A stretch of 64,000 bases of DNA from Corynebacterium comes (lineage in GTDB: Bacteria; Actinomycetota; Actinomycetes; Mycobacteriales; Mycobacteriaceae): contig NZ_CP046453.1 in NCBI RefSeq assembly GCF_009734405.1, forward strand, positions 1,984,001 to 2,048,000. Direction: 5' to 3'. Below the pieces are notes generated by a model. The model saw only the letters and a list, made by a program, of their open reading frames with translations, was not told the origin of the DNA and did not search any database. Each line of letters opens with the position of its first letter. The stretch's first letter is position 1. The position numbers were made by a program, and so were the translations under genes. Below are positions 3,457 through 18,694 of the stretch, piece by piece.

Positions 3457-4692
3457 ATGGCACTAGCAACGAAGGATGAAAGCGGGGTGGCGATCATGAC
3501 AGACACTGTTGATGCAGCCACCGCAGCCGGACGACTCGCGGCCGGGGTGGCCGCGGAACCCGCCGGGCCCGCCCGCGACGCTGCATTCGCCCACGCTCTG
3601 CAGGTACTTCACGAGCGCCGGGACGAGTTCAACGAACAGGGCCACGTCTCCCGTGACTACATTGCCCTCCTCAAGAAGGCCGGGTTGTTCGGGGTTGCAG
3701 TTCCCGAACAGTTCGGCGGCGACCCGCAGCCGCCCGCACAGTTCATGAAGCAGGTGGAACAGATCTCCGCCATCGACCCCGCCACGGGATGGGTCGCCAG
3801 CTTCGGTTCCGCCCCCGTGTACTTCGCCTCCCTTCCGGTGGAGACACAGCGCAGGATCTACGCGGAGAGCACGGACATCGTTTTCGCTGCGGGTATGTTC
3901 CCGATGTTCGAGGCGGAGCGGGTCGAGGGCGGGTACATCTGTTCCGGCGAGTGGCAGTTCGCCAGCGGCTGCAAGGGAGCTGACCTGCTCGGTATGGGCC
4001 TGCGGGGCGGCGAGGAGACCAACGGCAAACCGCTGACCGCGCTCGTGGACCCGGCGAAGGTCGACATCGTCGACAACTGGTCCGTGGCCGGCATGAAGGC
4101 CACCGGCTCCCACAATGTGCGCGCCGACCGGGTCTTCGTTCCCGACGAGATGACCTTCGTCCGTGGCGGGAAGCCCACCATCGACGAACCTGTCAGTCGA
4201 TATCCCGTCATCGCCTACGCAGCGCAGGTGCTGGCGGTAGTGGGCCTCGGCGCCGCCCGCGGAGCACTGGATTACGTCACCGAGGTGGGCTCGGCCAACG
4301 CCTCCATCACCGGTGGGCCAGCCAAGGGCAACCGGGCGAACTACAAGTCCGGCCTGGCCAAGGCGGAGGCGGATCTGCGTTCCGCCCGGGCCTTCTTCTA
4401 CGAGACCACCGAGGAGGTCTGGGCCAAGGCCGTCGCGAACGAGGAGATCACCGACCGGGACAAAGCCCTGCTGCGGATGGCCGCGGCGCAGGCTGCGCAT
4501 GTCAGCCGGGATGTGGTGTTGGCGGCGTTCAACCTCGCCGGCACCGGCGCCATCTTCGAAGGGCACCCCCTGCAGCGTTTCCTGCAGGACGGTCTCGTCC
4601 CCGCACAGCACGCAATGCTCCAGGAGCACATCTTCGAGGCCGCGGGTGCCCTGCTGCTCGGGCTCGACCCCGGGATTCCCAGCTTCCCCTGA
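3457..4692 (+). CDS. iacA: Indole-3-acetate monooxygenase component IacA (acyl-CoA dehydrogenase fold)
   Basis: A 411-residue flavin-dependent monooxygenase of the acyl-CoA dehydrogenase-fold class, which uses reduced flavin from a separate reductase (here IacG). In characterised iac loci this enzyme starts indole-3-acetate breakdown by oxidising the indole ring. Visible landmarks are the N-terminal helical part with YIALLKKAGLFGVAVPEQFGG, the mid-domain GEWQFASG and NWSVAGMKATGSHNV motifs, and a C-terminal helical bundle ending in GLDPGIPSFP. Start 3457 is chosen because GGAG (3447-3450) sits 6 nt upstream. An upstream start at 3370 lacks such a site, and 3496 is a weaker alternative. First gene of iacABCDEF. 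The exact assignment rests mainly on the complete iac gene set around it. Confidence 0.85.
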   Translation: MALATKDESGVAIMTDTVDAATAAGRLAAGVAAEPAGPARDAAFAHALQVLHERRDEFNEQGHVSRDYIALLKKAGLFGVAVPEQFGGDPQPPAQFMKQVEQISAIDPATGWVASFGSAPVYFASLPVETQRRIYAESTDIVFAAGMFPMFEAERVEGGYICSGEWQFASGCKGADLLGMGLRGGEETNGKPLTALVDPAKVDIVDNWSVAGMKATGSHNVRADRVFVPDEMTFVRGGKPTIDEPVSRYPVIAYAAQVLAVVGLGAARGALDYVTEVGSANASITGGPAKGNRANYKSGLAKAEADLRSARAFFYETTEEVWAKAVANEEITDRDKALLRMAAAQAAHVSRDVVLAAFNLAGTGAIFEGHPLQRFLQDGLVPAQHAMLQEHIFEAAGALLLGLDPGIPSFP

Positions 4693-4732
4693 CACCCCGC
4701 CCCGCACTCACCCCTACTTCTAGGAGAACCCC

Positions 4733-5095
4733 ATGTCGCAAGAGCCACTGCGCACCCTGTTCTGTGTCGGCAACAACCAGAACTTCTTCGACCTTCCGAA
4801 GGCTGACATCGGCCCGGTGTGGATCGCCACCCAGGCATTTCTGACCAGCCTGCGGGACATGGACGGCGTCGAGGTCATCGGAACCTTCGATGACGATTCC
4901 CACATGGTGGGACCCTCGGACGGTTGGCCCTGGACCTTCTACGTACTGGCTGACGTGCAGGATCAGGCGACCGTCAAGGAGGCCTGCAATCTGCTGCGCA
5001 CCATCATGGTCGGCGAGTTCGCCCTGTGGAAGTACTTCAAGATTGAGGCACGGATGGGCCGGGAACTGGTCATCCGCGACGACGTCGAACTCTGA
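4733..5095 (+). CDS. iacB: IacB-like small protein of indole-3-acetate catabolism
   Basis: A 120-residue soluble protein with no signal or membrane segment. It is rich in aromatic and acidic residues: LRTLFCVGNNQNFFDLP near the start, then DDDSHMVGPSDGWPWTFYVLADV, then CNLLRTIMVGEFALWKYFKIEARMG. This pattern and its place directly after iacA match IacB of proteobacterial iac clusters, a conserved small protein whose biochemical step is not firmly known. AGGAG lies 8 nt before the ATG. The gap to iacA is 40 nt and to iacC 42 nt, so it is cotranscribed. I recognise the family from context and overall sequence; no catalytic motif is evident. Confidence 0.75.
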   Translation: MSQEPLRTLFCVGNNQNFFDLPKADIGPVWIATQAFLTSLRDMDGVEVIGTFDDDSHMVGPSDGWPWTFYVLADVQDQATVKEACNLLRTIMVGEFALWKYFKIEARMGRELVIRDDVEL

Positions 5096-5137
5096 TCGAC
5101 CCTCTCCCTTACCCGACTAATTACCGAAGGACACACC

Positions 5138-17215: not shown

Positions 17216-17225
17216 GAACCGAAGA

Positions 17226-17795
17226 GTGCAGAAAGAACTGATGATGACGGAAGAACTGCTCACCCGACTTGAGCGTCGTATCGACGTTCTCGAGGCGGAG
17301 GCCGACATTCGCCGCATTCAGGCACGCTACATGTTTCTCTGTGACACCCCGTGCCCGGTGTACCCTCCGGTCACTGACGAGGAACGCATCGAGCTGATCC
17401 TCGACCTCTATACGGAGGACGCCGTGTGGGAAGGCGTAGGCGAATACTACGACGGCCAGTTCGGCCGGGCGGAGGGTAAAGACGCCATCCGCGCCCACTT
17501 CGCCCGCTTCTGGCCCGAGGACCAGAACCCCCGGCTGATCCTCAACGCCCACTACCTGACCTCCGAGCAGATCCACGTGGACGCAGACCAGGCCCACGGC
17601 TACTGGATCCACATGCAGCCCTGGTTGTACTCGGACGGGACCTCATTACTGCGTTCCAGCCGACTCAACAACACTTTCCGCCGCGAAGACGGCGAGTGGA
17701 AGATCACCCGCACCCGCACCGAGAACGTGTTCATCGCCCCGTTACCGGACAACTTCGCAGAAAGCTATCCCACCGGTTCGGTCCTGCTGAAATAG
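17226..17795 (+). CDS. iacI: SnoaL-like protein IacI
   Basis: A 189-residue protein with an N-terminal helix ([25 protein letters not shown]) and a SnoaL/NTF2-like body ([32 protein letters not shown], then [16 protein letters not shown]). Such proteins are small lyases, isomerases or dioxygenase-subunit relatives. IacI is a conserved iac member whose precise reaction is unresolved. The GTG start at 17226 is preceded by AGGA (17214-17217); an ATG 15 nt downstream is an alternative. It lies 10 nt after iacG in the operon ending with catA. Confidence 0.75.
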
Positions 17796-17836
17796 GCCGA
17801 CCACCCCGCCTGAATCCCCCACCCCAGGAGAAGACA

Positions 17837-18694
17837 ATGATGACCGAGTCAGAGCTCACCCCCACCGCCAAGGGTTCCGGTAACGCCGCGACCGACAAGT
17901 TTAAGCACGAGACGGTCAAGTCGGACACCTCCAAGGAGCGCGCCAACGCGATCTACACCGATCTGCTGGCCGCCATCGCCGAGGTCGCCCACAAGCACCA
18001 GGTCACCTACGACGAGTACCGCGTGGTGAAGAACTGGATGATCCAGGTCGGCGAGTACGGCGAGTGGCCGCTGTGGCTGGACGTCTTCGTCGAGCACGAG
18101 ATCGAGAAGATCAACTACGACCGCCACAACTACACCGGCACCAAGGGCTCCATCGAAGGCCCGTACTACGTCGAGAACGCCCCGGAGCTGCCGTGGAACG
18201 GCGAGATGCCGATGCGCGAGCAGGACAAGGCCGCCACCCCGCTGATCTTCAAGGGCCAGGTCACCGACGTCGACGGCAATGGTATCGGTGGTTCCACCAT
18301 CGAGCTGTGGCACGCCGATGAGGACGGTTTCTACTCCCAGTTCGCCCCGGGCATCCCGGAGTGGAACCTGCGTGGCACCATCGTCACCAACGAGAACGGT
18401 GAGTACGAGATCAAGACCCTGCAGCCGGCTCCGTACCAGATCCCGTCTGACGGGCCGACCGGCTGGTTCATCGACTCCTACGGTGGCCACCCGTGGCGTC
18501 CGGCCCACCTGCACCTGAAGGTGAAGAACCCGGGCTACCGCGAGATCACCACCCAGCTCTACTTCAAGGGTGGTGACTGGACCGAGAACGACGTCGCGAC
18601 CGCCGTCAAGCCGGAGCTGCTGCTCGACCCGCAGACCGACGCCGAGGGCAACAACGTTGTCACCTACGGTTTCGCCCTGGACAAGGAAGACTAG
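17837..18694 (+). CDS. catA: Catechol 1,2-dioxygenase
   Basis: A 285-residue intradiol dioxygenase that opens catechol to cis,cis-muconate. The four ferric-iron ligands are in place: Tyr166 (DEDGFYSQF), Tyr200 (PAPYQIP), His224 and His226 (RPAHLHL). The N-terminal helical dimerisation part includes [22 protein letters not shown] precedes the start ATG (a second ATG follows at once). Its place at the end of the iac gene set matches the known end product of indole-3-acetate degradation, catechol. catB and catC, needed for the next steps, are not in the window. A strong terminator follows at 18708-18751. Hydroxyquinol dioxygenase is a less likely alternative. Confidence 0.92.

Follow-up and report, generated by a model that had tools for sequence, protein, structure and literature searches.

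The 64,000-nucleotide stretch of Corynebacterium comes analysed here (the window; bases 1,984,001–2,048,000 of contig 1 of a 2.89 Mb genome) carries what homology and synteny support as a complete iac-type indole-3-acetate (IAA) locus with catA. This locus very probably represents the actinobacterial form of the iac pathway, and its two-component system, palindrome, fused IacG, 92-residue protein, transporters and catA make it a variant. The functional span covers about 1784–18694, including the flanking two-component system and the gene for the 92-residue protein. The plus strand holds iacA-B-C-D-E-F followed by TRAP transporter genes; the response regulator gene, the 92-residue gene and iacH lie on the minus strand, and an MFS gene, iacG, iacI and catA follow on the plus strand. 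The histidine kinase gene is divergent from iacA, and both the TRAP and the MFS genes fall inside the span. The gene places proposed in an earlier sequence-only reading were all found again (Table 1), and its claim that all nine iac genes and catA are present is borne out by the reciprocal matches described below.

The window proteins were compared with the iac clusters of Acinetobacter sp. NCu2D-2, Caballeronia sp. SBC1, Novosphingobium aromaticivorans and Streptomyces sp. NBC_00564, the comparison set consisting of the proteins of these four clusters only, with those of Pseudomonas putida 1290 and Caballeronia glathei left out. Each window protein finds its expected Iac counterpart as best match, and searching in the opposite direction confirmed all 32 pairs found in up to four reference clusters. 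Identities to the Acinetobacter proteins are 40% for IacA, 55% for IacB, 56% for IacC, 35% for IacD, 51% for IacE, 35% for IacF, 31% for IacG (reductase part only), 25% for IacH—which is 48% identical to its Streptomyces counterpart—and 31% for IacI. The genes named as iac markers, iacA, iacB and iacI (PMC9613470), are thus all present by reciprocal best match, as are iacC, iacD, iacE and iacF and, at 31% and 25% to Acinetobacter, iacG and iacH. IacB is the most diagnostic member: at the limits used it finds no family in NCBIfam or Pfam, but it matches 28 plasmid records at 45–78%, four of which (one Acinetobacter, two Klebsiella and one Psychrobacter) are annotated as "IacB protein". Among the best 40 of the 416 plasmid matches of IacC, the first 30 lie at 51–83% and the 31st at 39%. 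For IacA, a threshold of 60% identity has been quoted for candidates (PMC11630574), and a survey using it would miss the present cluster, since its IacA is 40% identical to that of Acinetobacter.

Scanning with IacB of the window, a search that detects only close relatives, gave 33 named loci, every one actinobacterial. IacA, IacB, IacC and IacD are found in all 33, IacE and IacF in 32, IacH in 31, IacG in 30, IacI in 29 and the MFS transporter in 15. The core order, from iacA to iacF followed by the reversed regulator, 92-residue and iacH genes, is unbroken in 24 of the 33, five of which hold an iacI-like gene between iacB and iacC; six others are split, two are incomplete, and L060 keeps the order, its iacA and iacB both being matched as two fragments. 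IacA occurs in 13 of 242 Corynebacterium genomes, and five of the 12 genomes other than the present one are also among the named loci, the two sets overlapping. Auxin-degrading loci have been described in five phyla including Actinobacteria, across 221 genera (PMC9613470), and an iac cluster in Nocardiaceae (PMC12462448). With these loci at hand, neither the gene order nor the actinobacterial host can be called unusual, as had been suggested. Rhodococcus PBTS2 is reported to have grown on IAA although its chromosome yielded no iac genes (PMC7002392). Some individual loci depart from the common layout. In Corynebacterium locus L092 (G120:C1:1844000-1863900), about 6.5–8.5 kb in, a second iacA-iacE pair, 56 and 46% identical to the window's and perhaps serving another indole acid, lies between iacG and iacH. 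L032, on a plasmid of Mycolicibacterium sp. P1-18, holds iacA-B-C-D only, and iacE, iacF, iacH, iacG, iacI and the regulator and 92-residue genes were not found within 20 kb. The Streptomyces sp. NBC_00564 plasmid locus has iac and cat genes with a short IacG, whereas its 24 kb stretch showed neither a two-component system nor the 92-residue gene nor iacI.

The dedicated regulator in the cluster is a two-component system, a MarR regulator having been looked for only among the genes named here. Most iac clusters hold a MarR regulator and others a LysR regulator or a two-component system (PMC11630574, PMC11676955), and two-component control of iac has been reported in Pseudomonas root isolates (PMC11630574). 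The kinase, a probable IAA sensor, matches Pfam PAS and HATPase_c, although no HisKA domain was called at 0.001. Of the 33 named loci, 24 have a kinase of at least 40% identity, and the other nine reach only 33–40%; in four of these nine (L032, L037, L044 and L051) the best match does not adjoin iacA. The response regulator, present in 31 of the 33, is missing from L032, which lacks everything after iacD, and from L038, whose stored contig stops behind iacF. It holds a receiver and a FixJ/NarL-type helix-turn-helix domain, and its closest PDB match is 1yio (StyR), followed by FixJ. The residues K175, V176 and H179, by which StyR contacts DNA (PMC5874301), align with D, V and T here. The regulator would therefore work like StyR but appears to fall outside the StyR/TodT group, because two of these three contact residues differ.

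Two palindromes accompany this regulator: CTAAAGAATTCCTTAG, placed 107 bases 5' of the iacA start codon, and CTAAGGATTTCCTTAG, 5' of the TRAP genes. Their common pattern, CTAARGAWTTCCTTAG, has exactly two perfect places in the genome, both in iac gaps, and one further place at two mismatches, while the reversed-pattern control has none; at up to three mismatches the window gives four matches (two places, both strands) against a mean of 0.11 in dinucleotide shuffles. Among 50 loci scanned, 17 hold a strong palindrome (score of at least 20) in the gap between the kinase gene and iacA, two of these being second copies from the same genome; further loci have weaker ones, and no palindrome scoring at least 9.5 was found in this gap in the Rhodococcus ruber group, Tsukamurella, Pseudoglutamicibacter or C. 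glyciniphilum. In 16 selected sites the box carries 1.68 bits per position and the left and right flanks 0.33 and 0.92, so that part of the right flank is also conserved. A related box, GTAAAGRTTTCCCY, stands between iacH and the gene for MFS or IacG, represented here by GTAAAGGTTTCCCCAC. Of the 44 loci having iacH, 36 show a relaxed form of it no more than 300 bases from the iacH start; without regard to place, 39 of 47 stretches contain this form, compared with 0.025 per 20 kb of shuffled sequence, the pattern itself being derived from these same loci. By position and conservation, the palindrome and the GTAAAGRTTTCCCY box are candidate sites of the adjacent regulator, and together with it they offer a ready test of auxin sensing in these bacteria.

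IacG consists of an N-terminal flavin reductase domain fused to a C-terminal domain for which structure modelling predicts an IclR effector-binding fold. In HPAH reductase C1, the C-terminal domain gates the reductase for 4-hydroxyphenylacetate; by analogy, the reductase of IacG is probably gated by an indolic ligand that binds to the IclR-like domain. The C-terminus of the Acinetobacter IacG gives only weak winged-helix matches (E 0.008 and 0.012). A second flavin reductase of the same genome (L007, about 2.78 Mb on C1; 397 residues), located near an acyl-CoA-dehydrogenase-like gene, has a weak IclR_C match (E 0.17), so that such fused reductases may be more widespread.

The 92-residue protein is found in exactly those 13 of the 242 Corynebacterium genomes that have IacA, and in 31 of the 33 named loci. 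It has 88 homologues, and every listed one with a stated organism is actinobacterial and carries the name hypothetical or uncharacterised; an alignment of 51 homologues has 26 invariant columns, many of them W, H or D. The gene is present in Rhodococcus YL-1 and absent from the fetched stretches of Acinetobacter, Caballeronia, Novosphingobium, Streptomyces NBC_00564 and Rhodococcus USK13; thus, iac does not always need this protein. In three Williamsia loci and one Kitasatospora locus the gene adjoins iacC-D-F and not the regulator. The structural model is confident (pLDDT 92), yet structure comparison gave no convincing fold match. The protein may assist either the later steps of the pathway or signalling. 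With its tie to IacA genomes in Corynebacterium, the family is a concrete new candidate for the conversion of dioxindole-3-acetate into catechol, or for signalling.

Three actinobacterial-type catA genes of the genome score above the cut-off (C1: 97146-97994, 2001840-2002688 and 2159355-2160197). The iac copy is 95.8% identical in DNA to one of the others over 867 bases and 96.3% to the other over 835, and the two non-iac copies are 99.6% identical over 836 bases, with flanks that do not match among the three. This looks like a recent duplication or gene conversion confined to the coding region. Full-length CatA stands beside iacI in none of the 11 other Corynebacterium stretches checked (of 13 fetched); in G163, G083, G065 and G162 a catA gene is located some 5 kb away from iacA, towards the kinase gene, and in G076 and G214 the distance is about 12–13 kb. 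It is therefore probable that this lineage recently either recruited catA or homogenised it with its copies. Neither the dGTPase gene that adjoins on the right nor the MFS gene on the left turned up in those 11 stretches of about 16–20 kb each, which suggests that the iac cluster occupies different chromosomal places in different species.

The enzyme set could alternatively serve mainly another indole acid, such as indole-3-propionate or indole-3-butyrate, with IAA as a minor substrate. IacA and IacE of C. glathei also convert these two acids (PMC7225977), and the window's IacA is distant from the Acinetobacter protein; on the other hand, IacB, IacC, IacD, IacI and IacH with a catechol dioxygenase are the set of IAA users, which makes this alternative unlikely. 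A steroid, benzoate, anthranilate or phenylpropionate pathway is highly improbable: HsaA, HsaB and HcaE are the best generic models, but all such models score far under their cut-offs (HsaA 142.5 against 450, HcaE 223.6 against 830), and IacB and IacI have iac partners.

The assignment of the boxes is less settled, and the palindrome and the GTAAAG box might belong to another regulator or be plain promoter elements. Two StyR contact residues are changed (K175 to D, H179 to T), conservation of the palindrome extends into part of its right flank, and the strong palindrome is missing from many loci. Nevertheless, an altered recognition helix fits an altered box, both perfect genomic sites fall in iac gaps, and the regulator gene accompanies all but two of the named clusters, both incomplete; this alternative is rather improbable. 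Several observations weigh against the reading of the locus as an iac variant with its own operator and gated reductase: IacH (25%) and IacG (31%, only the reductase part aligning) are weakly similar to the reference proteins; Pfam IclR_C is not significant by sequence, with E 0.1 in one of 15 members and no match for the window protein; a palindrome scoring at least 9.5 is missing before iacA in many loci that share the regulator; and the box models derive from the very loci scanned.

For the iac pathway in its actinobacterial form, the following route can be proposed. IAA would be taken up probably via the TRAP and/or the MFS transporter; in the iac clusters of PsJN and LB400, MFS genes bear the name of dioxindole-acetate transporters (PMC11676955), and a TRAP role for IAA is presumed. 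As in other bacteria, IacA, with reduced flavin from IacG, would oxidise IAA at C2, and IacE would then give dioxindole-3-acetate, the product made by IacA and IacE of C. glathei, where IacB is reported to have no demonstrated role (PMC7225977, PMC9613470). IacC/IacD and the reductase IacF, with IacB, IacI and perhaps IacH—genes implicated elsewhere—may lead to catechol, a conversion that the literature leaves unexplained in the iac pathway (PMC9613470, PMC7225977), and CatA would open catechol into the ortho route. The PAS kinase probably senses IAA or an intermediate and phosphorylates the StyR-like regulator, which would switch on expression by binding the palindromes 5' of iacA and of the TRAP genes as well as the GTAAAGRTTTCCCY box that precedes the MFS-iacG-iacI operon. 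That Actinobacteria run their own auxin catabolism, with a StyR-like two-component switch acting on an operator of its own, an IclR-type ligand pocket that gates the flavin reductase, and an iac-linked 92-residue protein in the steps from dioxindole-acetate to catechol or in signalling, is put forward tentatively, as possible rather than probable.

Table 1. Features of the iac locus (window positions)
Feature	Position	Strand	Basis
Histidine kinase, PAS domains and HATPase	1784..3292	-	Pfam PAS, HATPase_c
Palindrome CTAAAGAATTCCTTAG, candidate operator of iacA	3350..3365	not assigned	
iacA, flavin-dependent oxygenase, 411 aa (440-aa frame opens at 3370)	3457..4692	+	HsaA-like oxygenase
iacB, 120 aa	4733..5095	+	homology
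iacC, Rieske dioxygenase alpha	5138..6415	+	family and homology
iacD, dioxygenase beta	6408..6920	+	family and homology
iacE, short-chain dehydrogenase/reductase	6930..7688	+	family and homology
iacF, ferredoxin-type reductase	7754..8704	+	family and homology
Palindrome CTAAGGATTTCCTTAG, 5' of TRAP genes	8776..8791	not assigned	
TRAP transporter dctP-dctQ-dctM	8940..11943	+	dctP ~8940-10052, dctQ 10049-10627, dctM 10633-11943
Response regulator, StyR/FixJ-like	12030..12734	-	family and closest PDB matches
92-aa protein, iac-linked	12718..12996	-	co-occurrence
iacH, amidase	12990..14336	-	family and homology
Box GTAAAGGTTTCCCCAC, candidate operator of MFS-iacG-iacI operon	14446..14461	+	
MFS transporter	14541..15980	+	family match
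iacG, flavin reductase with C-terminal IclR-like domain (~residues 181-395)	16025..17215	+	family and predicted fold
iacI, SnoaL-like	17226..17795	+	family and homology
catA, catechol 1,2-dioxygenase	17837..18694	+	above TIGR02438 cut-off

Like the iac clusters of P. putida 1290, Acinetobacter and C. glathei, the present locus holds iacA to iacI and a nearby catechol dioxygenase gene. Unlike them, it has a two-component system in place of the MarR regulator, an additional 92-residue gene, the C-terminal part of IacG, a TRAP transporter and a different gene order. The kinase, the regulator, the 92-residue gene, the reversed iacH and the long IacG are shared with other actinobacterial iac clusters (Rhodococcus sp. 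YL-1 pYLL1, Gordonia, Nocardia and Mycolicibacterium), whereas in the present locus TRAP genes follow iacF and catA stands after iacI. HPAH reductase C1, like IacG, has an N-terminal flavin reductase domain, but its C-terminal domain is MarR-like, in contrast to the IclR effector fold predicted for IacG. Finally, a StyR/FixJ-like response regulator and a palindromic site are common to this locus and the StyS/StyR and TodS/TodT systems, although the StyR/TodT site is ATAAACN4GTTTAT (PMC5874301), as opposed to CTAARGAWTTCCTTAG here, and two of the three contact residues differ.
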